Source: Raphanus sativus (taxonomy: Eukaryota; Streptophyta; Magnoliopsida; Brassicales; Brassicaceae). From it: 64,000 nt of DNA. Numbering within the stretch: position 1 is the first letter of the stretch; every line of letters begins with the position of its first letter. The notes beneath the pieces were generated by a model. The model saw only the letters and a list, made by a program, of their open reading frames with translations, ran no database searches and was not told where the DNA came from. The stretch spans positions 30,665,643-30,729,642 of the forward strand of contig NC_079516.1 in the NCBI RefSeq assembly GCF_000801105.2, written 5' to 3'. The translations under genes and the position numbers were made by a program. Of this stretch, positions 2,862 through 63,345 are shown piece by piece.

Positions 2862-3123
2862 GACGAGTAAAAAGTAGTAAGCAACCGATGTACCTTGTCG
2901 TTTACTCGCGAGAAGTAAGAGTGACGAGCAACAGATGCAAGCGTCATTTTACTCCAGCTCGTTTGACTATTTGCCTTGATGGGCTTGTACCAACAAATGA
3001 AGTAGATCCTTTGGCCGACCAACTGAAGCTTTTTTTTTCTTTACATTGAGATGCTCGACATGGCGACGAGCAGCTTGGTGAGACAAGTGACTTTTACTCA
3101 GCAAGACCGTGAAGGCTTTTACT

Positions 3124-4482: not shown

Positions 4483-4497
4483 ACTCCCCCAGACTTA
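4483..4497 (-). other. Polypurine tract of element C
   Basis: On the minus strand this reads TAAGTCTGGGGGAGT and directly abuts the 3' LTR. It is the expected plus-strand primer. Confidence 0.85.
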
Positions 4498-11210: not shown

Positions 11211-11301
11211 GTACCTGAAAAGACAAGAAAAATTTTAATCAGAAAGGGGGGTAAAAGAAAAACCTAAGATTAATAAGATTAAATCTAATGGCGATCAAAA
11301 C

Positions 11302-12910: not shown

Positions 12911-12915
12911 ACTAG

Positions 12916-14038
12916 ACATAGGGTTTCTATTCAGGAATGGAGATTATAATCTCTATAAATGCTTTAACAAGTTGCTTGCATGATACTATAGATCTCAGCC
13001 GCTTAACTCAAGTGAAGTATCACTGGTTAAATAATCTAGATCTATAGCCTCAACTGTCGTAATGTTGGCGCAGAAAAAGAGTCGGTCGATATCCTTTTGA
13101 GATATCGAGCGATACACCTTTCGCAGCGCCGATCGATTCACCTGTCGGGATATCGATCGACGGCTTCTAGATCTGCCTAGGCGCGAGCCGAATATGAACA
13201 CAAGGTCTCAAGGAGGAGCTGCCGCTCTTCTCAACGGGAGACAAGCAAGCTCAAATGGATAATTCAAGATAATCAAAGATCCTAGTGATCTATGTTCTAG
13301 TTAGCTAATCTAAAACAAGCATAGGGTGTAATCCATTTGATGAGTACAACAACTTAGCAATTATAGTTTGGGGCTAATCCCACAAACCTATTTGAACCCT
13401 AGATCTAACAAGTAGACTACTCAGACATAGCTCAGCAATTAATAACAATAGATAGATGAAAGAATTGCATAGATAGAATAAAGTAGAAATACAAAAGGAG
13501 ATTAGAAATCTCTCCAATCTCTCAAAACAAATAAAACTCTAGTCTCTCTCTCACACTCTCTGCTTTTCTTTTGAGGGTTGTCAAAAGCTTGCTTCTTTCG
13601 AAGGTTGCTGTCAAAAAATACTTATCAGGAATATTTAAGCATTTCCATTAGGTTAAAAACTCGTCAGGGGCAATCTCGTAATTTCGTGAAGTCTTGGTGA
13701 AGTAGTCGGCTAAACCATTTCGTCTTCGATATCGATCGACACACTGGATGTGTATCGATCGATTATAATCTTCTAGTACGCGGATCTTCTCAACTACATC
13801 GATCGACAACTCAGGATGAGTATCGATGGATTATAATCGCAATGTTGACTTCCGACTTAGTCTTGAACGGTCAAATCGGGTGTATCATCTCTTGTACTCC
13901 AAAATGCTCCAAAAACATCACTTTCTCACAAAATGCTCCTGAACCTGAAAACATACCTAATAGGCTAAAAACAGATTAAATATATAATAAAATACTAGTA
14001 TATCATGGTTAAAAACGGGTAAAATCCATGATATATCA
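12916..14038 (-). repeat. Element C 5' LTR, second fragment
   Basis: It resumes the LTR after the ACTAG duplication (12911-12915) and ends ATATATCA before TTACT. Confidence 0.92.
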
Positions 14039-15911: not shown

Positions 15912-16331
15912 TGTTTGAACCAAAATCGGTGCTGTGCAGGGAGTAGACTGATTTCGATGGTGGGATTAGGAGAGGTCTTCATAATGAGCTTGAACTGGAT
16001 AGATGGAGAGTAAAAGAGGTGTAATATGTTATAGCTAGACCCGGTGAAGGGTTGCCTACGTACCCCGGATGAGGATCAAGCCAATCGTAGTTCTACAACA
16101 AAGGATCACAAGTGCTTAGATAAAAGAAAGTGATGTGGTGTTTCTCTCTCTAGAGAGTGTTTATCTCTCTAGAAGGTGAGAAAGGAAGTAAGAGATGGAA
16201 AAATACCCTTCTCAAGGAGGGATGCCTCCTTATTTATAGAAGGATGAGGTCTAGGGTTTTCCTAGTGTCTTCTTTTAAATGGGCTGAGCCCATTATCTTA
16301 TAAACCTGAAGGGCAAAGCCCACCCCCAACA
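15912..16331 (-). repeat. Element B 5' LTR (420 bp)
   Basis: It is nearly identical to 1245-1670, with a few substitutions and small deletions. It ends CCCCCAACA, followed by AGGAC. Confidence 0.92.
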
Positions 16332-16336
16332 AGGAC

Positions 16337-17614
16337 TACCTACTTTGCAAGCTCTTCAAATACTCACTGATTGGACAAGCTTCACACTGGCTCAAGCAGC
16401 AATCTACAGGATCACTGACATCCTGGGCCGACATCAAAAACGCCTTCCTGAGTAATTTCTTTGATGAGACACGCGATGAAGACTTAAGGAGCAAAATCGC
16501 CACTTTCTCGCAAAAGCCTGGTGAGACTTTTAAAGACGCGTGGATCAGATTTAAGTTCTTCCAGCGAGACTGTCCACACCATGGATTCAATGAAGTGCAG
16601 CTACTAAGCACTTTCTACAGAGGTATCGCCTTGAGGTATCAGATGGCTCTTGATACTGCTAGCGAGGAGAACTTCAACACCAGGAATCCAATAGAGGCTG
16701 TGAGACTTATTGAGAACCTAGCCAACAGCAGCAGCACCAAGAACACTAACTATGACAAGAAGAAATCGGTTGCAGCCATGGGGGAAGACAAGATGAATGA
16801 AGTCAGAGCGAAGATAGATGCTTTACATGCATTTCTGGGGCAGCCAGTCTGCTCAGCTGAAGAAGGAGAGGCTAGAGAAGATGATACAGAGGAAGATGTG
16901 AACTATATTGGAGAAACTGGATTTCAGAGATATGGAAACCAGAGTGGAAACAGAAACTTTTTTGGCAGTGGTCAAAAGAGTAGCTACAACCAGAGTTCAC
17001 AGTATCAGAAACCCTTCACCAACACCAGGAACTACGGCAACTCAGCTTACCAAAACCCACCACCACCCACCCAGGAGAGTAAGTTTGATGCCATGATTGA
17101 TAGAGTTCTAAAAGGTCAGCAAAAGCTTACAGTAGACTTCAATGGGAAGATTGACTCTGTCTTCAATAATCTGACCACAAGGATAGACACCATTTGCACT
17201 CAAGTTAAGAAACTTGAGACACAGATTGTCGAGACTGAAGACTCTATCAGGAGAATTGGAACTTCTAAGGAAGTAGGGGAAGGAAGAAGGAAACACCACG
17301 TCAATGCCATTATAGATGATGATTTCTGGCAAGTGGTGAAACAGGAGAAGCTACAAGAAGGAGACTTTGAAGTGGAAAGTTCACTAAGTTTCGGAGGATC
17401 ACAATGGTGTCGATCGACACCAACTAGTCCAGATCGATCGACACCAACGATGTCATTTCCGGATACGACTGCAGATTGCAACGCGGTTAGGATATTGACA
17501 CATGCTGAATTCACGGCTTCGCATCCTCACCCACCCACCCACACCTACGAAGATATCGACCGACGAGACGAGCCACTCATCGATCGACAAAAAGATGAGA
17601 AACGTATCGATTGA
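16337..17614 (+). pseudogene. Element A gag, C-terminal part
   Basis: The frame resumes exactly where B interrupted it and is open from 16334 to 17614, with no upstream ATG of its own. It contains the capsid-like domain (ASHWLKQQSTGS, WADIKNAFLSNFF, ETFKDAWIRFKFFQRDC), the acidic EGEAREDDTEEDVNYIG stretch, then the coiled-coil linker and DDDFWQVVK. Here capsid and linker are one frame, which shows that the split seen in copy C is a mutation. The end is Ser-Ile-Asp rich. Confidence 0.85.
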
Positions 17615-25859: not shown

Positions 25860-26032
25860 TTGCTTCCGGAAACTGTCAGAAACGGGTATGGCGGAGCATA
25901 TCTCAGCTTCTTCGAGTCTTGCGGGCTTTCTTTCCCAATTCCGAGACAGCTGCTAGAGATTCTCGCCGATCTTGGTATTTCTCTCACGCAGCTATGCCCG
26001 AACCTTCTCCGACACCTCCTAGCGATACTTGT
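25860..26032 (+). pseudogene. Antisense ORF of element E, first coding part
   Basis: The frame encodes AYLSFFESCGLSFPIP, then LLEILADLGISLTQLCPNLL, similar to the ORF at 37980-38507 (YFEAGIRDRVPSLI, LDISPGQLTPPAW). This is the pattern of the putative gypsy-type transposon domain (Transposase_28 type) found in plant Tat elements. It has no clear start codon in this frame and follows a CT-rich leader. It is cut at 26032 by a solo LTR. The frame rejoins correctly at 27397 if the LTR and one target duplication are ignored. Confidence 0.65.
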
Positions 26033-27391
26033 TGATAGTGCTCAAATTACCCAGTAGAGCTTACTCTCTCAAATAAGAGGTACAGCTGTAGTACTTAGGG
26101 ATCGAATCACGAGGAGCTAGGGAACCAATTAAATAAAATCTACTAATCAATCCTAGGCAAGGTTGGTTTATATGATAGAAATGAAAATAACAATTCCAAA
26201 ATTGAGCAAGGCAGTTGCTATAACTAACAATATGAAGGGTTGTTTAAATGGGATAAAGAGTGCTAGACATAGGGTTTCTATTCAGGAATGGAGATTATAA
26301 TCTCTATAAATGCTTTAATAAGTTGCTTGCATGATACTATAGATCTCAGCCGCTTAACATATGTGAATGAATCACTGGTTAAAATATCTAGATCTCTGGC
26401 CACACCTTTCGCATGATGACACAGAAAAATAGTCGGTCGATATCCTTTTGAGATATCGAGCGATACACCTTTCGCGGCGCCGATCGATTTACCAGTAGGG
26501 TATCGATCGACGGCTTCTAGATCTGCCTAGGCGCGAACCGAATATGACCGCGAGGTCTCAAGGAGGAACTGTTGTTCTTCTCAACGGGATACATGCATCG
26601 CTCAAATGGATAATTCAAGATAATCTAAGATCCTAGTGATCTATGTTCTAGTTAGCTACTCTAAAACAAGCATAGGGTACAATCCATTTGATGAGTATCA
26701 CAACTTAGCAATTATAGTTTGGGGCTAATCCCACAAACCTATTTAAACCCTAGATCTAACAAGTAGACTACTCAGACATAGCTAAACAATTCATAACAAT
26801 AGATAGATGAAAGAATTGCATAGATAGAATAAAGTAGAAATACAAAAGGAGATGAGAAATCTCTCCAATCTCTCTCAAACAAATAAAACTCTAGTCTCTC
26901 TCTCACACTCTCTGCTTTGGTTGTGAAAAGCTTCAAGCTTCAAAGGGTTTTCAAAACTTGCCGTCAAAAGAACTTAGCAGGAGTATTTAAGCATTTCCAT
27001 TAGGTTAAAAACTCGTCAGGGGCAATCTCGTAATTTGGTGAAGTCTTGGTGAAGTATTCGGCTAAACCATTTCGTCCTCGATATCGATCGACAACACTAA
27101 ATGTGTATCGATCGATTATAATCTTCTAGTACGCGGATCTTCTCAGCTACATCGATCGACAACTCAGGATGAATATCGATCGATTGTAATCGCAATGTTG
27201 ACTTCCGACTTAGTCTTGAATGGTCAACTCAGGTGTATCATCTCTTGTACTCCAAAATGCTCCAAAACATCACTTTCTCACAAAATGCTCCTGAACTTGA
27301 AAACATACCTAACATGCTAGAAAACAGATTAAATATATAATAAAATACTAGTATACCATGGTTAAAAACGGGTAAAATCCATGATATATCA
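26033..27391 (-). mobile_element. Solo LTR of the SID family (1359 bp) inside the E antisense ORF
   Basis: TGATAGTGCTC...ATATATCA, flanked by CTTGT (26028-26032 and 27392-27396). It has the same length and structure as the LTRs of element C and no internal sequence. Confidence 0.93.
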
Positions 27392-27396
27392 CTTGT

Positions 27397-28943
27397 CAGA
27401 GCCAGAGAGGAGAAGCTTTTGTTTGAGCTGGAGGAGTTGCACAGTCTATATCTCATAAAGCGCAACCAGAAGAATCATGGGACATTCTTGGCGTCTCCTC
27501 GTCCTGGCCTCCATGTGATTGGCGGGACACCCTATCGGGATGATCTGTGGCGAGAACAATTCTTTGTTTTCAAAGTTGACTCGTCCACAGTGGGAGATTT
27601 TGATTTCTCCCTGCTCCTTCGTCGATGGGCCGAAACTATCGGTGAGGTTTTGAACTTTTATTTGCCTATTATCCAAGGAATCTATGCAATTGCTCATTCA
27701 TATGTTTTTTTTTGTTTAGCTCATCCGAAAGTTTCTCCGGTGTCCGATCAACTTGGAGGAATGGTGGCTGTTTTGAAGCGCGGGGACACCGATTGGTCAT
27801 TGTTTACTAGGGAGCAAATTTGTACTTTGAATTCGCTTTCCGTCTGTTTAGGAATAGCTCCAGCGATCTCGTGGCCGGTCGGGTTGCTCGAAGAGGCTGA
27901 GCCTTCTGATCATGAAGAGGTGCTCGTTCCGGAGATCACTCAGAACCCTGGCGTCTGCTTCGAGGAAAACGCCAGTGGATCCTACCCCGTTATCTTTGAG
28001 CTCCGATTCGGAGGAGGATGTGGCAGCTCGCGAACACGGGTCTGCCAAGGCTTCGCGAAGTGCTTCACCAAGACCGCCGCAACCTGCTTCCAAGACGTCG
28101 AAAAGACGGAGAGTAGGGAGGAGCGATCGTTCCCCTTTACGTGAGACTAGTTCTGGTCCCAAACATTTGGGTGATGGGACTAGCTCTCGAAGCTTTGGGG
28201 CGATGTTCTTCTCTTCCTCGGAGGAGGAAGACGCTTATACCAAGGTCGCTGAAGCGAATGCCAAGGTTTGATCTAAGCCAACTGTTATTTTATTACTAAT
28301 TCCTGCTTTCATTGCATCGTTTTCTGATTATATTTATTTCCAGGTCATGGAGGCTTGTAACGACCTTGTTCTTAAGATGGCGGAGCGTACAGAGACTTCT
28401 CAGAGAGATGTGGAGATTGATCGGATCTCCCTTGACTTTAAGAGGATCTCTGCTGAACTCGAGATTGCCAAGCGGGAGAACAAGGAGGAGGTTGAGAAGA
28501 TCAACTCCATGATGGCAGAGTGGGTGAAAGTTTGTGATGAGAAGTCAGCTCTAGAAGTCGAGGTCGCTGCTCAACAGACCAAGATTGCAAGGCTTGAAGC
28601 TGAGAGGGATCGAGACGTTCGCTCCGCTTGTCGCGAGATGTCGCGTCAGTATGCGGAGATTCTGGGATCTTTAGAAGAAAAGTGGTCCAACAAGGAGAGG
28701 GAGATGGCGGCTAGAATTCAGCTTCAGGAGGTGGTTGCTAACATTGATCTTCTGAATGAGATCAAAGAGGACATCTGCGACGTTGACGGGGAGTTGGCTC
28801 GCCTGCAAGATTTGGAGAGAGATTGTGAAGCAGCCATCGAGTCCTGTCCCTCCTCGAGTTGGACTATCTCCGAGCTTGATCTTCTTGAAAGTGCTGGAGG
28901 ATTTGGACCTCCGGGGGCCGTCAAACGCGGAAGGCGACGTTGA
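27397..28943 (+). pseudogene. Antisense ORF of element E, copy 1, with two probable 78-bp introns
   Basis: It continues the Transposase_28-like frame (SPRPGLHVIGGTPYRDDLWR, SLLLRRWAETI). A probable intron at 27642-27719 (GTGAG...TTTAG, 78 bp) keeps the frame, leading to AHPKVSP. The next coding block changes frame between about 27880 and 27960: SDSEEDVAAREHGSAKASRS, then a KTSKRRRVGRSDRSP basic stretch and SSSEEEDAYTKV. A second GT-AG interval at 28266-28343, also 78 bp, joins ANAK to VMEACNDLVLKMAE. The last part (28344-28943) is a coiled coil of about 200 residues ending in the basic tail KRGRRR. A nuclear or structural role is plausible; I do not assign a function. Confidence 0.65.
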
Positions 28944-38950: not shown

Positions 38951-39964
38951 AGAATAAAGCTATGGAGGCGTTCATCCAAGCCGCGGAGAAGCTCTCAGCC
39001 AAGAAGCCTGCTGCTTTGTCTTGGAACTTGTAGGTGTTCTCGTTGCGCAAGATGTGGCATGCGATCAGGTAAGGAGTATCAATGTACTCCATCTCAGAGA
39101 CAACCTTGTAGGAGCTGAGGTTGATGTAGAAGCGCTGGAACAAGGGAGTGAGCAGACTGCCACAACGATCCTTCTTGTCATCAGTCCGAATCAAGGTGTC
39201 TCTGCGCTCAGCGAACATGGAGATGAGATGGAAACCTGGGTTGGTCTTAACCTCCTGGATCAGGGTGATGTTCTCTCTGCGCATCTCGTCCTCAAGTCCC
39301 GTGTAGAGAACCTGGAGCTCTCCTTCGCGAACAGGACATTGGACACGATCTTGGCGATGATCCGGATAGTAGAGTTCCAGATCTGCGACTGGTAGGCCTT
39401 GCGAGAGGTGAACTTGCCGGCTGCAATGAGATCCCAAAAGGTGTCTGCCGGCTTGAACTTCTTCTCCACTGAAACTCCCTTAGGCGTGTCTGCAATCTCT
39501 GGTAGCTCATTCAGATCGTTGAGAGAGATGGTGCAGAACTTGCCATCAGCCATGAAGGAGAAGGAGCAGTTCTCGTATGTAGGTGCATTGGAGTTCTGGT
39601 AAGTGATCTGGCACGTCGCGAGCACTTGCCTGACCAAATCCGGGTAGAGAACCTGGGCTTGGAAACAAAGAGCCATGAGTCCCATAGCCTGAACCGTGTC
39701 AAACACCTCGGTGTCAAGGCCTAGATCAGCTAAGGTCTCCTGGTGCGCGAACCGCGTGGGCAAGATATCCGCTAGAAGGAGCCGGTTGTATCTCGCTGCT
39801 GACTCCTTGTCCCATCCCTCAACATTGTAGTCAAGGAGCATCGGATCATTGAGGTCGATGGGCTCGCCTTCAGTCTTGTTCGGCCATGGGTAACCAGGTG
39901 GAGCTCTCACGGCTGGAGAAGCTGTGGTCTTGGCGGCCCGTGCGTTTCTCATCTTTGGAGGCAT
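38925..39964 (-). pseudogene. Athila ORF-1-type protein of element I, frameshifted
   Basis: The first frame (39964-39260, 234 residues) begins with a basic N-terminus, then PPGYPWPNKTEGEPIDLNDP, and has the conserved block RFAHQETLADLGLDTEVFDT characteristic of the Arabidopsis Athila ORF-1 family encoded between pol and the 3' LTR. A frameshift at about 39290-39430 moves it into the frame ending at 38925 (RENITLIQEVKTNPGFHLIS, YIDTPYLIACHILRN). The end is truncated by the junction with G. The plus-strand frames here are shadows. Confidence 0.8.
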
Positions 39965-40747
39965 CTGTAAAACAAAAACAATATCCCAATATCAGCACAG
40001 TTCATTGGTTGTTCTAGAAACGATGGAACAATCCAATCTTCTTATTATACCCAAGTCCATCGATTACTAGACAACCTACACAAGCCTCAATGTCTACATC
40101 ACAAATCGCAAAGACCAAGAATCACAATCAACAAATCGGTTCCTCTTCCATTCAAAATCAATCATCAATTCAATCCTAGTAGCAAGTATACTATCAAGAG
40201 CTACAATCTAGGATGAAATCGCAAAGCATAAAGGGAAAAGAGGATCCAAGAAATCACTCCCAATCGCGAATTGCATGCGCAAAGAGGGGGAGGATTCTTG
40301 AGTGATTACCTTGATTGGAGAGGTGATTCCTACAAAACAAACCAATCTCTAGAGAACCCAAGAGATGAGAACCAAAATCGATGGAGAGAAAGAGAGATGA
40401 GTGGTTCGCGATTTAGGGTTCAAAGGGTGTGGTTTGCGGCGAGAGAGATGAAGTGGGGAAGTGGAGTGAGTGGGCCTTAAATAGGCCAACCAAAACCGCT
40501 TCCCCTTCCCTTTTATTTGTTTTTTTTTATATATTTTTTTTTGTTCGAGTACTTACCTGGGAACAATCGGCGGAACAACCGCTGGAGTGTTCTCCTGGAA
40601 AGATCTCGAGTTTTCTTGATTTTTCAACCTGCAAGTTAGTTTCTGGAATGATAAAAGTAAAAAGATAAAACAATATTTACACTCACCAGTGGGTTGCCTC
40701 CCACCAAGCGCTTGTTTTCTGTCACTAGCTTGACTTCAATGAGCCGA
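39965..40747 (-). other. Element I spacer between pol and ORF-1
   Basis: Non-coding. It contains poly-T (40516-40543) and the AGTGGG...CCCACY hairpin at 40688-40705. Confidence 0.7.
40688..40705 (-). promoter_or_regulatory. Conserved hairpin after the Athila pol
   Basis: In the element sense GGTGGGAGGCAACCCACT differs by one base from the copies in A and C. The position, shortly after the last coding frame, is the same. Confidence 0.6.
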
Positions 40748-43371
40748 TTAGGCCTGAGGGGGATCGCTTAAGGGTATCTCTACACCTTCAGCACTTGTTG
40801 TGTCAGCAAGATCTGGCTTGAGACGCTGACCATTGACAACAAATTCTCCACCTCTTGTGTCCAGCAACACAACAGCTCCATAGGGGCGAACCTCCTTGAT
40901 GGTGAAAGGTCCAGACCATCTGGACTTAAGCTTTCCAGGGAACAGCTTAACCCTGGAGTTGAAGAATAAGACCTGATCGTTCGGAGCAAAGCTTCTGCTG
41001 ATGATCCGTTTGTCATGGAACGCCTTGGTCTTTTCCTTGTATATCTTAGAGCTTTCATAGGCCAGATGCCTGATCTCCTCCAACTCGTGGATCTGAATGG
41101 TTCGCCTCTCCTTGGCGGGTTTGATGTCGAAGTTGAGTAGTTTGACAGCCCAAGCAGCCTTGTACTCTAGCTCAACAGGTAGGTGGCACGCCTTGCCATA
41201 GACCAGATGATAGGGAGTGGTCCCTAAAGGTGTCTTGTAGGCTGTTCTGTACGCCTAGAGAGCATCGTCAAGCTTAAGGGAACAGTCCTTGCGGGTGGTG
41301 TTGACAGTCTTCTGCAGGATGCTCTTGATCTCTCTGTTGGAAACTTCCACTTGACCACTTGTTTGGGGATGATAGGCGGTTGCAACCTTGTGTTTCACAC
41401 CATTCTTGCTCAGCAATCCTTGGAACAACTTATTGATGAAGTGAGTTCCACCATCGCTTATAACCACTCTAGGCACTCCAAATCTTGGAAAGATGATGGA
41501 GGTGAACATCTTGATTACAACTCGTGCATCATTGGTTGGACTAGCAATCGCTTCTACCCACTTGGAGCCATAGTCCACAGCAACTAAGATGTACTCGTTC
41601 TTGTGAGAGACTGGGAATGGTCCCATGAAATTGATCCCCCAGCAGTCGAACACTTCAACTTCAAAGATATAGTTCTGAGGCATCTCGTTTCTCTTGCTTA
41701 TACTCCCCATCCTTTGGCATGAATTGCATCGTGATATGAAAGTGTGAGCATCTCTGAACATAGTGGGCCACCAGAAACCAGCTTGGAGGATCTTGGAAAC
41801 TGTCTTGAAGGTGGCAAAGTGACCAGCATAAGAGGAACCGTGACAGTGGTGAAGGATCCCTGGAATATCAGCCTCTGGAACACACCTCCTGAAGATCCCA
41901 TCTTTGCCTTGCCGATATAGATACGGCTCATCCCAGAAGTAGTGCCTCGCTTCCCTTAGAAATTTCCTCTTCTCATTCCCAGTGAACCTAAAAGGCTTTT
42001 TCTCAGCTGCCAAGAAGTTGGCAATCTCAGAACACCATGGAAGGTTCGGGTACTGCTTCTGGATCACTGCAACCAATGCTCCTTCTACGTGGGAGCAGTC
42101 CTTGATGACAGGTGACGACTGTTCCAAGTTGCACAGACCAATCGCATTGACGTATTCCATCGGTTGTTCCTCGTCAAGAACTGTCTCATCTGACACTTTC
42201 ATCCTGGAGAGATGATCTGCTACTCCATTATCAACCCCCTTCTTGTCTCTTATCTCCAGATCAAATTCTTGGAGCAAGAAAATCCATCTTAAGAGCCGCG
42301 GTTTAGCATCCTTCTTCGTGAGTAGGTACTTGAGAGCCGCGTGGTCTGTGTGCACAATCACCTTTGATCCAACCAGATAGGATCTTAACTTCTCAAAAGC
42401 GAACACGATGGCAAGGAGCTCCTTCTCTGTGGTTGCGTATCGGCATTAAGCTTCATCTAAGGTCCTGCTTGCATAGTATATAAGGTGAATCTTCTTGTTT
42501 TTACGCTGTCCAAGGACTGCTCCCACTGCAAAATCACTTGCATCTGTCATGATCTCAAAAGGAAGATCCCAGTCTGGAGGTTGGACAACTGATGCACTGA
42601 CTAGAGCTCCCTTGATCGTGTGGAATGCGGCTAGGCAATCGCTGTCAAAGGCGAACTGAGCTTCTTTGAAGAGCAACCGAGTGAGTGGTCTCGCGATCTT
42701 AGAGAAGTCCTGGATGAACCTCCTATAGAAACCAGCGTGCCCCAAGAAACTCATGATTCCTTTCATTGAAGTCGGTGGTTGCAGACTCATCATGACCTCG
42801 ATCTTTGCCTTGTCCACCTCAATGCCTTTCTCTGATATCTTGTGTCCCAGAACAATCCCATCTCTGACCATGAAGTGGCATTTCTCCCAGTTCAGCACCA
42901 GATGCTTCTCCTCGCATCGGTTCAGCACCCTGCACAAATTTGACATACAGACATGAAAGGAGCTTCCATAGACGCTGAAATCGTCCATGAAAACCTCCAT
43001 TATGTCTTCGATCAGATCAGTAAAAATCGACATCATGCAGCGTTGGAAGGTCGCTGGAGCATTGCACAAGCCGAAAGGCATCCTCCTGTATGCATATGTT
43101 CCATAGGGGCATGTGAACGTCGTCTTCTCCTGATCGTCTGGGTGGATGGGAATCTGAAAGAAACCTGAATAACCATCTAAAAAGCAATAGTAAGGGTGGT
43201 TAGCCAATCTCTCAAGCATTTGATCAATAAAAGGAAGTGGGAAGTGATCCTTACGAGCCGCAGCATTCAACTTACGAAAATCAATACACATGCGATGACC
43301 AGTAACTGTTCTAGTAGGGATCAATTCATTCTGTTCATTGGTTATCACAGTGATCCCACCCTTCTTAGGTA
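40748..43371 (-). pseudogene. Athila pol (RT, RNase H, integrase) of element I, two nonsense mutations
   Basis: One minus-strand frame runs from 43371 to 40748 with only two stops (42444-42446 and 41252-41254), each a single change. It starts inside RT at PKKGGITVITNEQNELIPTR because element H cuts off the N-terminus. RT shows FRKLNAAARKDHFPLPFIDQ, FGLCNAPATFQRCM and the catalytic VFMDDFSVYG. RNase H shows EIMTDASDFAVGAVLG, then the first stop. Integrase has the HHCC zinc region ([18 protein letters not shown]), [21 protein letters not shown] and [10 protein letters not shown] for the Asp-Asp-Glu triad. The second stop replaces a Trp-like position before AYRT. The C-terminal part ([15 protein letters not shown]) is intact. 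It is the only gypsy RT/IN in the window. Confidence 0.92.
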
Positions 43372-44820
43372 TGATATCACTCAAATTACCCTAAGGAGTG
43401 AATTACTCTCATCAAAAGAGGTCAAGTTATAGTACTTAGGGATCGAATCCACAAGGAGCTAAGGCACACACTAGATCTAATAGTTATGATTAAGCTAGGC
43501 TAGCAGTAAATATATTATAAAGCAGTAAATAAAATAGTAAATATATTAAATAGCAAGGGTGAACAAGGTAGTTGTTCTTATGAAACCAAGGTAGTTGATG
43601 GAAGGATGGTTGCTAGATCTAGGGCTTCTATTCAGGAATTGGGGATTATAATGTCTACAAATGCCTAACAAGTTGTTTGCATAATACTATAGATCTCAGC
43701 CGCTTAACATATGTGATAAATCACTGGTTAAATCATCTAGATCTCTGGCCACACCTTTCGCATGATGACACAGAAAAAGAGTCGGTTGATATCCTTTTGA
43801 GATATCGAGCGATACACCTTTCGCAGCGCCGATCGATTCACCTGTCGGGATATCGATCAACGGATTCTAGATCTGCCTAGGCGCGAGCCGAATATGACCA
43901 CAAGGTCTCAAGGAGGAACTGTCGTTCTTCTCAACGGGAGACAGGCAAGCTCAAATGGATAATTCAAGATAATCAAAGATCCTAGTGATCTATGTTCTAG
44001 TTAGCTACTCTAGAACAAGCATAGAGTTCAATCCATTTGATGAATATCACAACTTAGCAAGTATAGTTTGGGGCTAATCCCACAAACCTATCTGAACCAT
44101 AGATCTAACAGGTGGATCTATTCAGACATGAAGTATGTCACAGAAATCATAGATGAATAGATGAAAAGCAATAGATAAATAAAACCAAAACCAAAGGAGT
44201 TCCAGGAGGACTCTCAAGGAGTTCCTCCCTTATCTCCTAAGAGAAACAATGAAAGCGTAAAGAGCGTAGAAAGCGTCTAAAGCGTCCCCCTCAACAATGG
44301 CTTAGAAATAACATAAATAGGGTTTCTGGTCGTCAAGGGTATTTTGGTAATTTTGTGGTGACTCCTGGGCTTCAGTCGGTCATGAAATATACTCAGCCCA
44401 CATTCTGATGTCCCTGTCGATCGACATGCAGTGTGCTGTGTCGATCGACATACAATCCTCTTCTCGACAGTCTTCTTTCGCGAGGCAGACTGACAACTCT
44501 TCCGTAAAACGGGCATAACTTCCGATCTAACCGTTGGATTGATCTCAAACCGGTGGCATTGGAAAGCTAACTCAAAGTTCTAGCTTGTGCCCAAATATGG
44601 GATACATCCAATGGTGGTAAGGTCTCCATCGAGAGCTAAACATCTGAAGCGTATGTGCAGTCCTGCACTGTGAAAGACTTCAAAAGGCACCAAAATCACC
44701 ATATTTTTCCAAATCGTCCCTGAACCTGTAAATACTCTAAATAGACTCCAATACATAATAAATAGTATATAAAACACTTATAAACCATGGGTAAAAATGG
44801 GTAAAATCCATGGTATATCA
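43372..44820 (-). repeat. Element H 3' LTR (1449 bp)
   Basis: TGATATCACTCAAATTACCC...GGTATATCA; related to but distinct from the A/C LTR. It shares blocks such as AGATCTCAGCCGCTTAAC and the TCGATCGA cluster at 43820-43865. The PPT complement ACTCCCCCAGACTTA follows (44821-44835). It is inserted in the RT of element I; AGGTA at 43367-43371 should be one target duplication. Confidence 0.88.
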
Positions 44821-47399: not shown

Positions 47400-47975
47400 T
47401 CATAGATATTCAGGGACAGCAAGGTATGAGGTCTCAGACTTGTGCATTCTCACTTCAATCGGTTCCAGCTCAACTGTGCATCCTGGTAGCTCATCAAATG
47501 ATGTGTGTCGATCGATGCACTCGGGTGGGTGTCGATCAATGTTATCGGGTGGGTGTCGATCAATGCTATCTGGTGGGTGTTGATCGATCTCATCAGGTCG
47601 GTATCGATCGATGCTAGCCTTTGCCGAAGTCTCCATATCTTTTCTCACAGTTCTCCGCTCGTCATCAAGCTTTTGTTGTGACTCAAGCCATTCCTCCAGC
47701 TTTATGAAGTCTTCCATAGTGACTTCTACACTCGAATCCAGGTCTCCAAGTTGTTCTCCACCTTCTAACTCCAAAAATTCTTCTAGCTCCAAGAAATCTT
47801 CCATGGTGATCTCTTTTTCTACATCTTGGTTAGGATAACAACTTGATACATCAATGTACTCCAGTGTCGAGTCTGTAGTGTCCTGAGGACAACTCGAACT
47901 TTCAGGGATTTCGGGTGGTGTCGATCTGTGATAAACGTCTCTGTCGATCGATGTTGGGGTCGCGGGGTCGATCAA
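47400..47975 (-). CDS. SID-repeat acidic protein of element H (191 aa)
   Basis: No known domain. The first part is acidic with a repeated motif (ITMEDFLELEEFLELEGGEQ and VTMEDFIKLEEWLES), each predicted helical. Then four tandem 8-9-residue SIDRHPPD units follow, encoded by TGTCGATCAATG-type sequence. It may be continuous with the Gag-like frame upstream (48798-48073) through a frameshift. Only its place between Gag and the next SID protein hints at a role as a polyprotein linker. Confidence 0.55.
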   Translation of the reverse strand: MIDPATPTSIDRDVYHRSTPPEIPESSSCPQDTTDSTLEYIDVSSCYPNQDVEKEITMEDFLELEEFLELEGGEQLGDLDSSVEVTMEDFIKLEEWLESQQKLDDERRTVRKDMETSAKASIDRYRPDEIDQHPPDSIDRHPPDNIDRHPPECIDRHTSFDELPGCTVELEPIEVRMHKSETSYLAVPEYL

Positions 47976-47977
47976 TG

Positions 47978-48695
47978 ATGAGCTTGTGTTACAAATATCG
48001 GCTTCTTCTACTCTGCTCAGCTCTCCAGATTCATGTTGTTCATCACCTCTACCATATATTCCAGCATAGATATTATCTTATCTCTAGATTTGCTGTAGCA
48101 TTACATAGGAAGTTGTTGAGGAAGACGTTTGTGATGTCTTTCCAGGTAGTAACAGATCCTTGTGGCAACTTCCTGAACCAACATGCTGCTTCTCCAACAA
48201 GAGAATATGAGAATAATTTGCAGAAGTAGTAGTCTTCAGGGACTCCATTGCATTTGATGGTCGAAGCTAAATCTTCGAATGCCTCTAAGTGGTTAGTGGC
48301 ATCTTCATAATGAAGACCATGAAAAGGAGTCTGACCCACAAGAGAGATATATGCAGTAGGTAGCTCAGGGACAGAACTCTGGAATGTTGAACGACGCAAT
48401 GCAGGCCTTTTAGCATAAAAATCCTCAGGACTGTTGTAGTCTCTGAGTGCTCTTTGTCGTTCTGTCCCAGCATTCACAGCAGTAGCATCAGGGATTTCGA
48501 GAGGTATCGATCGATGAGACAAATATGTACCGATCATTTCTGAAGTGCCGATATCGATCGATGCTGAAATCGAATCACTTGTATCAGCTTTTTCTACTAT
48601 GCTCGGCTCTCGAGATCCATCTTGTTCATCATCCTCAACCGTACTATGGTTGAACAGCTGTCCTCTGTTCAGTTTGTCCCTCTGTGTATTCTCAT
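47978..48695. repeat. 718-bp direct repeat, copy 1
   Basis: From GAGCTTNTGTTACAAATATC to GTATTCTCAT it is nearly identical to 49893-50613. It covers most of a Gag capsid-like domain and is separated from copy 2 by 1.2 kb. Confidence 0.9.
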
Positions 48696-49835: not shown

Positions 49836-49892
49836 GTTTGACGATTTATGTACTCTGTCGATCACCGGTTCTTGTAGGGTGTCGATCGATTC

Positions 49893-50613
49893 GTGAGCTT
49901 CTGTTACAAATATCGGCTTCTTCTACTCTGCTCAGCTCTCCAGATTCATGTTGTTCATCACCTCTACCATATATTCCAGCATAGATATTATCTTATCTCT
50001 AGATTTGCTGCAGCATTACATAGGAAGTTGTTGAGGAAGGCGTTTGTGATGTCTTTCCAGGTAGTAACAGATCCTTGTGGCAACTTCCTGAACCAACATG
50101 CTGCTTCTCCAAAGAGAATATGAGAATAATTTGCAGAAGTAGTAGTCTTCAGGGACTCCATTGCATTTGATGGTTGAAGCTAAATCTTCGAATGCCTCTA
50201 AGTGGTTAGTGGCATCTTCATAATGAAGACCATGAAAAGGAGTCTGACCCACAAGAGAGATATATGCAGTAGGTAGCTCAGGGACAGAACTCTGGAATGT
50301 TGAACGATGCAATGCAGACCTTTTAGCATAAAAATCCTCAGAACCTGTTGTAGTCTCTGAGTGCTCTTTGTCGTTCTGTCCCAGCATTCACAGGCAGTAG
50401 GCATCAGGGATTTCGAGAGGTATCGATCGATGAGACAAGTCTGTATCGATCATTTCTGAAAGTGCCGATATCGATCGATGCTGAAATCGAATCACTTGTA
50501 TCAGCTTTTTTCTACTATGCTCGGCTCTCAAGATCCATCTTGTTCATCATCCTCAACCGTACCATGGTTGACGCAGCTGTCTCTGTTCAGTTTGTCCCTC
50601 TATGTATTCTCAT
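49893..50613. repeat. 721-bp direct repeat, copy 2, with a broken Gag-like frame
   Basis: It matches 47978-48695. On the minus strand it encodes the same Gag-like domain (SLVGQTPFHGLHYEDATNHL, then a frameshift before LVQEVATRI). It has several one-base indels relative to copy 1. Confidence 0.88.
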
Positions 50614-57088: not shown

Positions 57089-57491
57089 TGATACACTAAA
57101 AATGAATCCTTGCTACTACCAAGTTAACAGTTGCAATTGTAGTACTTGAGATTCAAATCCAGAGGACCAGTCTACACTCTAGTTCTATAAGTTCCGAAAT
57201 CAAGCTAAGATGAAGATATGAATTTGGTTATAAAGTGACGATAGTTAACAAGCAAATAAAACTAGAGATTGATTCAATTAAACAAGAGCTAGCCTAGGGT
57301 ATTTCATTAGGTGTTGATTTGGAGCCAAACAATTATTCAAGCGCGATGAAGTGCTTTCTAGAACTCGGATCACTCAGCTGGAACACTCCACTGTCGTGGC
57401 AGTGATCGCTTTGCAGATCGATCTCACCACCTAACTGTCGTTGGGATGAGGATCGATTGGAAGCTTTAGAGAACAGGTCCGATCAGTTCAC
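57089..57491 (-). repeat. Element J LTR, first part
   Basis: Starts TGATACACTAAAAATG beside the primer site; interrupted by element K after TTCAC (57487-57491). The rest begins after the second TTCAC, at 63346. Confidence 0.82.
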
Positions 57492-57492
57492 T

Positions 57493-58353
57493 GATGCGGT
57501 AATCAAACCAGTAGCTGAACCGGAGGTTCCCCAAACTGTCCAAAACAACCACCTAGGCGATACCAGCGACATAGGTCCAGTCCATGGCGTATATCTCGAC
57601 AACCAAACGGAGTTTTGGAGTGAAACCAATTTTATTGGATTTTATACTCAAGAAGGAGTCCAGCCCAATTGGAATTTCCAGAAAATCTTACCGGACCAAG
57701 GAGTTATGGATTTTACAAACTGTAGGTTCTCCAGCCCATCCAGTTGCGAGTATCAGACTTTAGAAGATGATTTCAGCCCAACCATGAAGCGGCCCTTTCC
57801 AGAATCAATCATGGGTTTCAAGAGGGAATTATTATCTATCCAGAGAGTCCAGAATCAGACGAATTGGTTCAGGGAATACCAAGATACAATCAATTTCCCA
57901 AAACCGATCAAACCGACATTATTTTGGGAAAGTTGCCAACCAATTCGATTTGGTCCAAACCAGACTTATCTATGGAAGCCAGGAGATCATATTAACCATT
58001 CAGAAGACATCCAAGATGTCTTCAGCTGCACCAGCACCCAGGAGATCAGGAGGATCTTCATTTGCACAAACCTTCCATTTTTGGCAGCATGGACACTAAA
58101 TGGTTTAAATGAATTTCTACTGATTTTTGCTCAAGACCAACGGCCATATTCTTCATCATGGCAACTCAGAGACATCTCAGGAAGACTCCTTGACCGTTGC
58201 TACATCCAGAAGCTGTCCAGATACAAGATCAGATCAAGTTTCCCCTTTGAAGAGAGCATAAATCAAGCTAAAGGCTATTTCTTTGGAGTCATCAAAGCCT
58301 TTGCTTCCAAGATTTTTATTTCGATTTTATTTGTTTCCTTTAGTCATTTTTAG
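57493..58353 (+). CDS. U3-encoded protein segment of element K, 5' LTR copy (286 residues, intact)
   Basis: No stop from the second base of the LTR to TAG at 58351-58353, only about 25 bases before the TATA box. It has no good start codon at the LTR border; the first internal Met is in GVMDFTN. In the 3' LTR the same frame is entered from the internal coding region, so this is best read as the C-terminal domain of that protein, duplicated here by LTR synthesis. Landmarks: NNHLGDTSDIGPVHGVYLDN, WNFQKIL, SSPSSCEYQTLEDDFSPTMK, LFWESCQPIRFGPNQ, LNGLNEFLLIFAQDQRPYSS and SYIFxAFASK-like end. I do not recognise the family. Several Trp, Cys and buried-type residues suggest a folded domain. Confidence 0.7.
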   Translation, partial: DAVIKPVAEPEVPQTVQNNHLGDTSDIGPVHGVYLDNQTEFWSETNFIGFYTQEGVQPNWNFQKILPDQGVMDFTNCRFSSPSSCEYQTLEDDFSPTMKRPFPESIMGFKRELLSIQRVQNQTNWFREYQDTINFPKPIKPTLFWESCQPIRFGPNQTYLWKPGDHINHSEDIQDVFSCTSTQEIRRIFICTNLPFLAAWTLNGLNEFLLIFAQDQRPYSSSWQLRDISGRLLDRCYIQKLSRYKIRSSFPFEESINQAKGYFFGVIKAFASKIFISILFVSFSHF

Positions 58354-58378
58354 ACTGTTAGAATGTCCCAAGGTCGAG

Positions 58379-58390
58379 CCTATATAAGCT
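58379..58390 (+). promoter_or_regulatory. TATA box of the element K 5' LTR
   Basis: CTATATAAGCTC, just downstream of the U3 ORF; the same box is in the 3' LTR near 62860. Confidence 0.75.
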
Positions 58391-58870
58391 CATTTAGTTT
58401 GTCTTTGTTAAGAACCCATCTTTGAAAGTAATAAGAATTATTCAGTTTTCTAGTTTTCTTAAAACTATTGTTTGAAGTCTTTTGAGTTAGTGAGAATCAG
58501 CTCTTGAGCAACCAGGCTTATCAAAGTCTCCTTTCACAGAGCTTTGTGGTGTCTATTCAATCCATTTCGTCCATCATCCCATCTGGTTGAGAGATTCAAT
58601 CAAACCTTCATCCGCAAATCCACTTCAATCCATCATTTGATCAAGCTGAGAGTGATACACATCCAGCAGCTTGATTCCACCATATCTATCCTTTATCTTT
58701 GTTTATTTACTCTGATTTGTTCTTCATATCATTAGCATCCCATTCATATTTTATTTGTTTCTGTTTTGTTTCATAAAAACTCATAAAACTCATAAAAATC
58801 TATCTTCTTTGTTTTCAGGTTGAACCTCAGTTCATCAATTCATATGGTCTGATTTCCAGGCTGTATCATT

Positions 58871-58882
58871 TGGTATCAGAGC
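58871..58882 (+). other. Primer binding site of element K, tRNA-iMet
   Basis: TGGTATCAGAGC is the standard plant initiator-Met primer site, two bases after the LTR. Confidence 0.95.
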
Positions 58883-59419
58883 TCAAAGCTCATGAATCAG
58901 GTCCATTCTATCCTTGCATCATATCCCATATTTGCTTGCATTTGTTTTTCCATTTTATAAAATCGAAAAATCCATAAAAACTGTCTTTTTGTTTCAAGTT
59001 TTGTTTCTGCATTTTATTTTTGTGTTCTTGCTGTTCATCCTTATAAACCACGAAAAGAAAATAAAAAGTTGTGTTTGATTCAGTTTGCATTGCATTTAGT
59101 TTCGAAATTTAGTTTCCTTTTAATTTGTTTCCATTTTTAAAAAGTCAAAAAAAAAATCTGCATTTTAAATTGTTTCCATATCAAATCTGAAAATTCAAAA
59201 AAAAAATCATTGTCAGCTTTGCATTTCATATTTTCTTTCATTGTGTTTATTAGCATTCCATATTAGTTTCATTTCGAGTTTGCATTAAGAAAACCAAACG
59301 AAAAATCATTTTTTGCTTAGTTGATTTCATTTCGGTTCATACTTGCATATTTATCGGTTTTGTTTAAATTAGTTTGCATTGCTGCATTGTTATTTTGCTA
59401 AACCAGAAATTCCCTATCC
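58883..59419 (+). other. Element K leader
   Basis: AT-rich leader with GTTTCATTT/TTTGTTTC words and no supported ORF. Confidence 0.7.
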
Positions 59420-60265
59420 ATGGTAGGAGAAACACACGGACAAAGTCAGATGGCCAAGAAGAGCCAACATTTGACAGCTTTGCAAGAGGTTGAACAGATT
59501 GCTCAGTTGAGGAAAAGAAGAAAGGCACAAGGCCAACGTCCACAGCCAGCAGAAAGAAGATTTGGAGATGCATCAGAGGCTGTCTATGTCGAACCCAAGC
59601 CACCAGATCCTTCAAGGATCAATAAAAATCCAAATTCTAAAACCCCCAAACTTAATGTTGTTAATTCTCATTTTGATTATAACTCTTTTGCTAATAAAGT
59701 TGAACTCTTTAAATTTTCAGGAAAAAGAGGTTATCTTAGATGGGAGAAGAACCTTGATGAATGGTTTCACTACAACAACATCTTGAAGGAAGAAAGGCTA
59801 GCTTATGCCATTGATCATCTAAAAGGAGATGCCTTTAAATGGTGGGTTCAAGAAGTAGATGATAGATGGTTTTACAAGGAGCCAACTATCAAAACGTGGG
59901 GAACACTTAAGAAAGCCATAAGGTATGAGTTTGCACCAGATTTTACAACATCTCAAATCAAGGAGAAGTACCCAAGGAGGTATCCAACTCATGGTTCCCA
60001 AGAAGCAAGAGAAGCTGCCCACAAAGAGGGTCAAAGAAGCTTGTCTCAACAAGCCAACTTGCAACCAAACCAGGGGCACACCATTGTCCATTGCTTAGGC
60101 CAGAAAAGTGACATCCTAAAGGTCATGGAGGTGAGTAAAAACGTCAGCCAAGACACCTTGAGCAGAGCCAAAGAAGAGCTAAACAAACCAGTACTTCAAG
60201 CAAAGGCTATGGTAAGTCCTATACTTGATAAATTGGTTTATATATATCATCTCCCACTGGTATGA
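59420..60265 (+). CDS. Gag of element K (281 aa)
   Basis: A Lys/Gln-rich N-terminus (MVGETHGQSQMAKKSQ) is followed by a Retrotrans_gag-type capsid domain at about residues 95-185: VELFKFSGKRGYLRWEKNLD, EWFHYNNILKEERLAYAIDH, LKGDAFKWWVQEV and TLKKAIRYEFAPDF. The frame ends at a TGA that overlaps the ATG of the next ORF (ATGA, 60262-60265). The next ORF continues the protein with a zinc knuckle, so this is either a recent one-base frameshift or a programmed shift. I favour mutation because the following text MSHLSLSK is one of the element's repeated motifs, normally preceded by in-frame sequence. Confidence 0.85.
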   Translation: MVGETHGQSQMAKKSQHLTALQEVEQIAQLRKRRKAQGQRPQPAERRFGDASEAVYVEPKPPDPSRINKNPNSKTPKLNVVNSHFDYNSFANKVELFKFSGKRGYLRWEKNLDEWFHYNNILKEERLAYAIDHLKGDAFKWWVQEVDDRWFYKEPTIKTWGTLKKAIRYEFAPDFTTSQIKEKYPRRYPTHGSQEAREAAHKEGQRSLSQQANLQPNQGHTIVHCLGQKSDILKVMEVSKNVSQDTLSRAKEELNKPVLQAKAMVSPILDKLVYIYHLPLV

Positions 60266-60762
60266 GTCACTTGTCTTTGTCCAAGGATATTAAGACAGGT
60301 CTTGAGGTCCAGAAAGACATGACCCCCACAACCTTGTTGGAATCAAGAGTTGTCCATGATTTATTTCCAAGAAAAATGGAGATTCCAAACCAAAAGAAAG
60401 AAGAGGCATCAACCCAAGGTAAGTCTTCTAATTTTAAAAATCTACAGGATCAGACATGCTATAGATGTCATAATAGAGGACACTTTTCTGTAGTTTGTCC
60501 AAATAAGAAAGCATTGAAAGAAACATCACTAGAAGAGAAAACAGATTTATCTATAAAAAGTGATAGTTTTATTCAATCTGATTTATTGGTTCCAAATTCT
60601 TGTATAATGCACTTGTCTTTGTCAAAGGGTATTGTATCAGGAAATAAGGAGCAAGAACTTAAAAGAGAAGACCCAGTCTACCAGCATGGCATTGCTAAAG
60701 AGGAGGAAGCCATAAGTGAGGCTGGAAGAAATGATTTGTTGCTTAAGGAAGCAAACCAGTAA
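60262..60762 (+). CDS. Gag C-terminus with CCHC zinc knuckle, element K (166 aa)
   Basis: It contains CYRCHNRGHFSVVCPNK, a CX2CX4HX4C-type nucleocapsid zinc knuckle, at about residues 68-84. Two copies of the (M)HLSLSK motif flank it (residues 1-9 and about 117-126). It overlaps the upstream Gag by four bases. The stop at 60762 is followed in another frame by 60858-62429. Binding of element RNA is the expected role of the knuckle. Confidence 0.8.
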   Translation: MSHLSLSKDIKTGLEVQKDMTPTTLLESRVVHDLFPRKMEIPNQKKEEASTQGKSSNFKNLQDQTCYRCHNRGHFSVVCPNKKALKETSLEEKTDLSIKSDSFIQSDLLVPNSCIMHLSLSKGIVSGNKEQELKREDPVYQHGIAKEEEAISEAGRNDLLLKEANQ

Positions 60763-60857
60763 TCAAAGTATCAAACCAAGGTAAGTGTTTAACAACACCT
60801 TTAGATACTGGTTTAAATTTTTATATTCTTGGTACAGGGATACCAGATGAGAGCTCC

Positions 60858-62834
60858 ATGCTTACTGAAGTGCCAAGGGCCGAGCCAGACCATGAGCTCA
60901 ATCAAAATCCACACCACAAGTGGAAACCAAAATCTGAACAAAGAATTGTTCAAGTGCCAAAACCTGAGGTAAATTTCACTATGGATCAGAATGCTATTAT
61001 TATTTCCATGATAAGATTAATGCACTTGTCTTGTCCAAGGGAAAGTGAAATAGGTACAGGAGACCAAGGTGAGAGCAAGCCAAACAAAGAAATAAAATTT
61101 CTTGCTGCCACAACTGAAAGTAAGGTTCTTTGTTCTTTGTTTTCATCAGTTTATAAATTCATTTACTTTGGTATGATACACATGTCTCTGCCAAGATGTT
61201 TTGACCCGGGAATAAGCAAAGAAAAGGGACATCCAAACCGTGGTAAAATCTTGCAAGAAGAAGCCTTAACCATGATGTCAATAGATGCTGTCTAGAAACT
61301 AGTTCAAAGAGATGTTGAACAAATGCCATTCAAAGTCAGCTTTGGTAAGGAAAGTCTTCTCAATTTTAAAATGTCTTTATCACTTGATTTTCCAGATGTG
61401 ATGCACTTGTTTTTGCCAAGAAATTTTGATCCAGGAATAAGAGAAGTAGAAGTTCACATCAGCCAAACACAAAAGGTGCAAAGAAGGCAGCAAGCCAACA
61501 CATGTTGCCCAAAGAAGAAAATCATTTTTCAACTTGTGGAAGCTATCAAAGTAAGTCTGGAAATCTCACATTTTGTTTATAATTTTTCAACCACAGATAT
61601 AATGCACTTGCTTTTTGTCCAGAATGTTGAGATTATTTCAGGTTGCAAAGAAGAAAGCTTCAAAGAGATCCCACCAGATTATCTTGTGTTGCTAGGAAGA
61701 TCAGCTCCAAGGAGGGACAGAAACGTGGCTACCAATAATCTGAAGGACCACCCACTCCAGAAGAGATGCAATGACCATAAACATAACAGAGGCGTGATCC
61801 TTTCCTATCTTCTCAAAGAAGAGCCACCAGACACACCATGCATCACCAAACCAAAATTGTATCACCAAGGTAAGGTTCTAAACTCCCAAATGAGAATGAA
61901 ACCTAACTTGCTCTATTGTGGTGTATCAGGTTATCCAGTTTTGAGGTCAAAACCTTCACAAGGGGGAGGGAATGATGCGGTCATCAAACAAGTAGCTGAA
62001 CCGGAGGTTCCCCAAACTGTCCAAAACAACCACCTAGGCGATACCAGCGACATAGGTCCAGTCCACGGCGTATATCTCGACAACCAAACGGAGTTTTGGA
62101 GTGAAACCAATTTTAATGGATTCTACACTCAAGAAGGAGTCCATCCCAATTGGAATTTCCAGAAAATCTTACTGGCCCAAGGAGTTATGGATTTTACAAA
62201 CTGGAGGTTCTCCAGCCCATCCAGTTGCGAGTATCAGACTTTAGAAGATGATTTCAGCCCAACCATGAAGCAGCCCTTTCCAGAATCAATCATGGGTTTC
62301 AAGAGGGAATTATTATCTATCCAGAGAGTCCAGAATCAGGCGAATTGGTTCAGGGAATACCAAGATACAATCAATTTCCCAAAACCGATCAAACCGATAT
62401 TATTTTGGGAAAGTTGCCAACCAATTTGATTTGGTCCAAACCAGACTTATCTATGGAAGCCAGGAGATCATCTTAACCATCCAGAAGACATCCAAGACGT
62501 CCTCAGCTGCACCAACACCCAGGAGATCAGGAGGATCTTCATTTGCACAAACCTTCCATTTTTGGCAGCATGGACACTAAATGGTTTAAATGAGTTTCTA
62601 CTGATTTTTGCTCAAGACCAACGGCCATATTCTTCATCATGGCAACTCAGAGACATCTCAGGAAGACTCCTTGACCGTGGCTACATCCAGAAGCTGTCCA
62701 GATACAAGATCAGATCAAGTTTCCCCTTTGAAGAGAGCATAAATCAAGCTAAAGGCTATTTCTTTGGAGCCATCAAAGCCTTTGCTTCCAAGAGTTTTAT
62801 TTCGATTTTATTTGTTTCCTTTAGTCATTTTTAG
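60858..62834 (+). pseudogene. Repeat-bearing protein of element K running through the PPT into U3
   Basis: One frame covers 60858-62834 with two stops: TAG at 61293-61295 and TGA at 62427-62429. The second lies in the LTR where the 5' copy has CGA, a CpG-to-TpG change. The internal part has degenerate modules ending in a motif like DVMHLFLPRNFDPG (about 61019, 61175, 61399 and 61601; related copies at 60267 and 60606). At 61959-61972 the purine tract is itself translated (SQGGGND), and the frame goes on into U3 of the 3' LTR for 287 codons to TAG at 62832-62834. No known enzymatic domain. Confidence 0.75.
61959..61972 (+). other. Polypurine tract of element K
   Basis: CAAGGGGGAGGGAA directly before TGATGCGG. 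Confidence 0.9.
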
Positions 62835-63340
62835 ACTGTTAGAATGTTCCAAGGTCGAGCCTATATAAGCTCATTTAGTTTGTCTTTGTTAAGAACCCAT
62901 CTTTGAAAGTAATAAGAATGATTCAGTTTTCTAGTTTTCTTAAAACTATTGTTTGAAGTTTTTTGAGTTTGTGAGAAGCAGCTCTTGAGCAACCAGGCTT
63001 ATCAAAGTCTCCTTTCACAGAGCTTTGTGGTGTCTATTCAATCCATTTCGTCCATCATCCTATCTGGTTGAGAGATTCAATCAAACCTTCATCTGCAAAT
63101 CCACTTCAATCCATCATTTGATCAAGCTGAGAGTGATACACATCCAGCAGCTTGATTCCACCATATCTATCCTTTATCTTTGTTTATTTACTCTGATTTG
63201 TTCTTCATATCATTAGCATCCCATTCATATTTTATTTGTTTCTGTTTTGTTTCATAAAAACTCATAAAAATCTATCTTCTTTGTTTTCAGGTTGAACCTC
63301 AATTCATCAATTCATATGGTCTGATTTCCAGGCTGTATCA
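61973..63340 (+). repeat. Element K 3' LTR (1368 bp)
   Basis: It is nearly identical to the 5' LTR. The main differences are the stop at 62427, a handful of substitutions and a 9-10-bp deletion of one CTCATAAAA copy near 63255-63270. Confidence 0.93.
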
Positions 63341-63345
63341 TTCAC

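Follow-up and report, generated by a model that had tools for sequence, protein, structure and literature searches.

Can a plant LTR retrotransposon carry the end of its own protein inside the U3 region of its LTR, where the promoter and the border of the element also lie? The question is raised by an element, here called K, in a stretch of 64,000 nucleotides from Raphanus sativus (the window), in which an open reading frame leaves the internal region and continues through U3. The layout itself is real and rarer than expected by chance, and similar layouts are known elsewhere.

Anatomy of element K and its frames

K is an LTR retrotransposon that spans 57492-63340, with TTCAC flanking it on either side (Table 1). 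The primer binding site, two bases past the end of the 5' LTR, is the single match of its sequence in the window, no match occurred in 100 shuffles, and we take it to pair with initiator tRNA-Met. The LTR pair differs by 31 substitutions and one 9-base gap, and the LTR-LTR divergence of 2.3% dates the insertion to about 0.9 to 1.6 million years ago at substitution rates of 1.3e-8 and 7e-9 per site. The faster rate is given in PMC5818461. A tandem-repeat scan and a bacterial sigma-70 promoter scan, the latter inapplicable to plants, added no information.

Table 1. Features of element K, in positions of the window
Feature	Positions	Strand	Basis and remarks
Left target-site duplication TTCAC	57487-57491	.	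same 5-mer at both ends of K
5' LTR, TGATG...GTATCA, 1377 bp	57492-58868	+	97.1% identity to 61973-63340
U3 frame, 5' LTR	57493-58353	+	286 stop-free codons (57493-58350), TAG 58351-58353; translation, shuffles
TATATAA, probable core promoter, 5' LTR	58381-58387	+	read from sequence; function presumed
Primer binding site TGGTATCAGAGC	58871-58882	+	2 bases past 5' LTR end
gag-like ORF, 281 aa	59420-60265	+	Retrotrans_gag E 0.025, weak, under Pfam cut-off
Second ORF, CCHC zinc-knuckle-like stretch, different frame	60262-60762	+	zf-CCHC E 0.035, weak, under Pfam cut-off
Third open stretch, same frame as later U3 entry	60747-61295	+	TAG 61293-61295 at end; translation
Frame crossing the polypurine tract, internal region to 3' LTR U3, 377 codons	61296-62429	+	TGA 62427-62429 at end; translation
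Polypurine tract AAGGGGGAGGGAA	61960-61972	+	adjoins 3' LTR; in frame within SQGGGND
3' LTR, 1368 bp	61973-63340	+	pairs with 57492-58868
U3 frame, 3' LTR	61974-62834	+	one TGA at 62427-62429; sequence reading
TATATAA, 3' LTR	62862-62868	+	read from sequence
Right target-site duplication TTCAC	63341-63345	.	same 5-mer at both ends of K

The initial annotation described a frame that passes through the polypurine tract (PPT, translated SQGGGND) into the LTR, and this frame is indeed present, its stop-free stretch beginning at 61296, directly after the TAG at 61293-61295. The 286 codons said to be open in the 5' LTR are open throughout, and the 3' LTR carries the single CGA-to-TGA change that had been described, past which the frame is open again up to 62831. 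The stop, placed about 25 bases ahead of the TATA box in the initial annotation, lies 27 bases ahead of TATATAA in both LTRs.

The frame that enters U3 differs from that of the gag-like ORF. A repeated peptide occurs in it twice in phase, as IHMSLPRCFDPGI at 61176, ahead of the TAG at 61293, and as MHLFLPRNFDPGI at 61401, beyond that stop; two more copies of the motif lie in the preceding frame (60262 and 60607). The copies at 61020 and 61602 are in phase at their start and then lose phase, so the frame of this spacer was not maintained throughout. One of our codon tests used an Arabidopsis codon table; with this table the segment 61296-61970 has a z of 2.75, its synonymous preference has a z of 5.15, models trained on ORFs of the window give 1.90, and the segment ranks first of six frames. 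The frame upstream of the PPT is probably coding.

Rarity and coding character of the U3 frame

When the 890 bases ahead of the TATA box were shuffled 5000 times with dinucleotides preserved, no shuffle attained 286 codons, the longest run being 246, and the per-frame chance probability of the open U3 run is 4.6e-6. Markov sequences trained on U3 attained this length in 1 of 20,000 cases at order 1, and in 43 and 62 of 20,000 at orders 2 and 3, both of which partly carry over the depletion of stops that is under test. With training on the R/U5 and leader of K, the length was attained in 0 of 20,000 sequences at order 1 and 0 of 20,000 at order 2. Over the 858 bases of the U3 frame, the two other sense frames contain 10 stops each. 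The window contains four further repeats longer than 1 kb, mutually related, LTR-sized copies of unproven LTR status, and in these the open runs reach at most 92 codons on either strand; a shorter repeat of 739 bases (47964-48695) has 206 open codons on the minus strand, where they overlap gag-like ORFs. A chance origin of the open U3 run is unlikely but not absurd, since the finding was picked out by eye.

The codon statistics of U3 are weak and neither prove nor exclude coding. Codon-position composition bias is absent (p 0.165), whereas four other frames of K give p values of 0.0003 to 0.017. Under the Arabidopsis table the U3 frame ranks fifth of six in the 5' LTR and third of six in the 3' LTR, the non-coding R/U5 and leader of K rank fourth and fifth, and the control ORFs, which are open frames of which several have no Pfam match, rank first in 12 of 12 cases. 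Synonymous preference reaches a z of only 1.18 and 1.13 in U3, compared with 2.72 to 5.63 in 10 of the 12 controls. Since the results disagreed, the codon tests were repeated with several training sets. Models trained on the ORFs of the window rank 10 of 12 held-out controls first (z 1.05 to 7.92). They place U3 at ranks 2 and 1 in the two LTRs when all 12 window ORFs serve as training (z 1.66 and 2.18), at ranks 2 and 2 with the four ORFs of K (z 0.48 and 0.84), and at ranks 1 and 1 with the other eight (z 1.87 and 2.06), the two LTRs not being independent of each other. A cruder codon model gives U3 ranks 3 and 2 with training on the ORFs of K and ranks 1 and 1 with training on seven others. 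In the codon tests the first half of U3 scores above the second half.

Decay of K and searches for relatives

In the U3 frame the 5' and 3' LTRs differ by 17 nonsynonymous changes, of which one is nonsense, and by 6 synonymous ones, giving a dN/dS ratio of 0.72 (binomial p 0.44), and substitutions amount to 23 in the 858 bases of the frame versus 8 in the remaining 509 bases of the LTR (Fisher p 0.26, computed with 508). The differences between the LTRs of K look neutral and, as in any dead insertion, are silent on selection before insertion. From gag to the end of U3 there are two frame changes and two stops, and K itself is therefore unable to make the whole protein; the ends of the gag-like and CCHC ORFs are counted as frame changes because in each case the next ORF continues in another frame. 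Two nonsense changes since insertion are observed (TAG 61293 and TGA 62427) and 1.62 are expected, an expectation that covers the gag-like ORF, the CCHC ORF, the third stretch, the tail and one U3, with frame changes outside it. K is a broken copy whose parts may have formed one frame when it was inserted.

The initial annotation had envisaged a useful coding domain inside U3. A protein frame up to the PPT and an openness beyond chance speak for this proposal, but its usefulness finds no such backing: the codon statistics are weak or contradictory, no family or structure emerged and the LTR differences look neutral. Profile search and structure prediction did not reveal a recognizable domain, as Pfam gave no match for the U3 protein and the AlphaFold2 single-sequence model was not confident (mean pLDDT 37.3). 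Among the five K proteins searched against Pfam, no pol family (reverse transcriptase, integrase) was found at E values up to 1. A PDB sequence search returned no match for the U3 protein up to E 10 and none for the gag-like protein up to E 1, and self-BLASTP of the U3 protein (E up to 10) detected no internal duplication. When U3, gag and tail were compared with the window by tblastn (E up to 1), K itself and weak matches were recovered, the best at E 0.043 inside K and 0.20 elsewhere, with no partner element among them. The U3 and gag-like proteins had no relative in viral and prokaryote contig collections, where absence is no evidence. The analysis also gave an ATHILA match and a weak DUF1633 match, families that point to the Brassicaceae as the likely host group. 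The U3 protein has a hydrophobic C-terminal segment (19-residue mean of 2.0 from residue 263); a reading of this segment as a membrane anchor was set aside, since T-rich DNA can yield such segments without function.

Known counterparts and competing explanations

K resembles the CRM chromoviruses in its LTR ends (TGATG...TATCA), in its 5-bp duplication (TTCAC twice) and, on our assumption that the site at 58871-58882 pairs with tRNA-Met, in its primer site, and it resembles CRM group A in a frame that runs through the PPT into the 3' LTR, in K an open frame and candidate coding region. Most CRM elements have LTRs ending in TGATG and T/CATCA; CRM elements also have a tRNA-Met primer site and a 5-bp duplication, and in group A an ORF enters the 3' LTR, where the CR motif of the integrase C-terminus is encoded (Neumann et al. 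2011, PMC3059260). However, the LTR part of CRM ends an integrase with the CR motif, whereas in K neither pol nor a CR motif was detected by Pfam and the U3 run extends over 286 codons. Because no pol was found, we do not file K as a CRM member, but its layout, if functional at all, would operate in the CRM manner. If K is a Ty3/gypsy element, its tRNA-Met-type primer site points to a chromovirus; alone the site is undecisive, since Ty1/copia shares tRNA-Met. Among plant Ty3/gypsy elements, this type of primer site belongs to chromoviruses and not to other lineages, and it is found in Ty1/copia as well (PMC6317226).

In the Reina clade, the ORF of Bingo1 to 4 and 7 from Beta vulgaris extends into the flanking LTR; Bingo LTRs measure 293 to 503 bp and the elements encode pol (PMC3605345). 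K is unlike them in that its 858 open bases exceed entire Bingo LTRs and in that no pol was detected. TR-GAG elements have two LTRs and a GAG-type ORF but no POL (PMC8704663; PMC5818461), an Arabidopsis TR-GAG of a copia family transposes (PMC8704663), and those of Coffea are related to autonomous CRM groups (PMC5818461). K shares with TR-GAG elements the two LTRs and the undetected POL, its GAG-type match being weak and split over frames, but a GAG frame that ends within U3 goes unmentioned in the available parts of PMC8704663 and PMC5818461. Extra ORFs located between pol and the 3' LTR are discussed in a review whose available text does not mention ORFs inside LTRs (PMC7264820). In animal retroviruses the U3 of MMTV contains the whole sag ORF, and a retroviral U3 may carry part of nef, as in HIV-1 (PMC12789967). 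These frames, like that of K, lie in U3 and are duplicated in both LTRs, but they are accessory genes of animal retroviruses and no homology is implied. A literature search for ORFs inside LTRs returned nothing relevant; other authors may have worded the matter differently, and we do not claim that it is absent from print. K brings together features that were already known, a probable GAG-only make-up and an LTR-entering frame, and its unusually long LTR part consists of 286 codons that fill U3 as far as the core promoter.

It could be that the U3 frame is a relic carried as a passenger, namely the polyprotein C-terminus of an autonomous partner (for example the integrase tail of a chromovirus), which K retains unused by way of a shared LTR. 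Such an origin would agree with the CR motif and integrase C-terminus encoded in the 3' LTR of CRM group A, with the kinship of Coffea TR-GAG elements to autonomous CRM groups and with the lack of a pol family in K. However, the U3-entering frame of K continues the repeat-bearing spacer with no detectable piece of integrase, tblastn (E up to 1) revealed no partner element in the window, and an unused frame should accumulate stops across transposition cycles, which makes a passenger somewhat unlikely. We also regard it as unlikely that U3 is non-coding and open by accident, the true protein ending near the PPT and the frame continuing without function. The weak codon signal, weakest in the second half, the absent period-3 bias, the lack of a family or fold and the U3-trained Markov sequences of orders 2 and 3 that attain 286 codons (43 and 62 of 20,000) are consistent with an accident, but the shuffles (0 of 5000), the order-1 sequences (1 of 20,000) and the sequences trained on the non-coding parts of K (0 of 40,000) argue against it, as does the first rank of six that models from the ORFs of other elements assign to U3 in both, non-independent, LTRs (z 1.87 and 2.06). 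A separate accessory gene with its own short RNA has a precedent in MMTV, whose U3 houses the entire sag ORF, but in K the U3 frame carries on from the internal one and a separate start is unnecessary, so that a gene of this kind is highly improbable.

A more appealing explanation, to which we assign a probability of about 0.5, is that K is an LTR retrotransposon that has decayed, is non-autonomous, has no detectable pol and probably derives from a Ty3/gypsy chromovirus as a GAG-only form, and that its U3 was possibly translated as a protein C-terminus. We favour a C-terminus because the U3 frame has no stops while the other two sense frames have 10 and 10 and none of the 5000 shuffles is as open, because it continues the coding-scoring segment 61296-61970 with the two in-phase motif copies, and because the two nonsense changes match the 1.62 expected since insertion. 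The ORFs that enter the 3' LTR in CRM group A and in certain Reina elements, and the limit of 92 open codons in the four other large repeats of the window, are further reasons. The C-terminus is weakened, however, by the lack of period-3 bias in U3, by its low codon ranks and the absence of a Pfam or PDB match or a confident model, as well as by the two frame changes, the two stops and the two motif copies that lose phase.

If U3 does encode a C-terminus, the protein frame of K at insertion would have run from gag across the spacer with its repeats and over the PPT into U3, stopping just ahead of the core promoter. The genomic RNA would start in R and the 5' U3 would act as promoter only, while the 3' U3, at the 3' end of the RNA, would be read by ribosomes as the C-terminal segment of the element's own protein and the stretch from the TATA box to R would form the 3' UTR. 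We infer these RNA ends, the translation and the open state at insertion from the anatomy of K. Reading U3 in this manner would require no new signal and would fit a frame that ends right before the TATA box. Perhaps the U3-encoded segment serves in C-terminal particle or chromatin targeting, by analogy with the role proposed for the LTR-encoded CR motif of CRM.

It is possible, although we propose it with considerable reserve, that in a family of plant retrotransposons lacking pol the C-terminal quarter of a GAG-type protein has come to lie in U3, where selection on protein, promoter and PPT/border would be combined over nearly all of U3 ahead of the core promoter and every insertion, including solo LTRs, would spread the domain. 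Should the U3 frame be translated and under selection, a single stretch of DNA would act as coding sequence, promoter and LTR border in a GAG-only element of plants, with an LTR-entering frame longer than in the Reina cases described in the available text of PMC3605345. The LTRs of such families would then not be neutral non-coding clocks, contrary to the usual assumption in the dating of insertions.

Other retroelement-like features in the window

Features outside element K, the decayed LTR retrotransposon (E-values are for Pfam profile matches)
Feature	Position	Strand	Detail
Retrotransposon gag ORFs, elements other than K	7569-11234 and 16310-17611		Retrotrans_gag, E 5.7e-22 and 7.9e-21
Ty3/gypsy-type pol remnant	41258-43390	minus	RT, RNase H and integrase domains across two adjoining ORFs
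Direct repeat pair	47964-48695 and 49878-50613		96% identity, copies 1.9 kb apart
ATHILA ORF-1 match	39263-39991		E 1.4e-13
DUF1633 match, weak	28272-28940		E 7.9e-5, below cut-off
Related LTR-sized repeats (n=4)	3123-4485, 11558-12913, 12912-14038, 26032-27391		mutual likeness ~92-97%

The entry for the gag ORFs also includes a protease-like stretch, whose gag-asp_proteas match (E 2e-5) falls below the cut-off. On the minus strand, an ORF matching Retrotrans_gag overlaps the left copy of the direct repeat. Given the ranges of these families, the ATHILA ORF-1 and DUF1633 matches hint that the host belongs to Brassicaceae. Two of the four LTR-sized repeats abut near position 12912.

A repeated motif in the spacer of element K

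Around and 3' of the zinc-knuckle-like stretch of K, the spacer between gag and the PPT carries six copies of an MHLSLPK-like motif (within 60257-61641). They are irregularly spaced, at distances of 342, 413, 156, 225 and 201 bases, and some of them are out of phase.

The junction between the first two ORFs of K

At 60262-60265 the stop codon of the gag-like ORF of K shares bases with the ATG of the following ORF in the sequence ATGA. This overlap probably reflects a frame change at the repeated MHL-type motif, and an overlap of the ATGA type could also allow reinitiation at this site.
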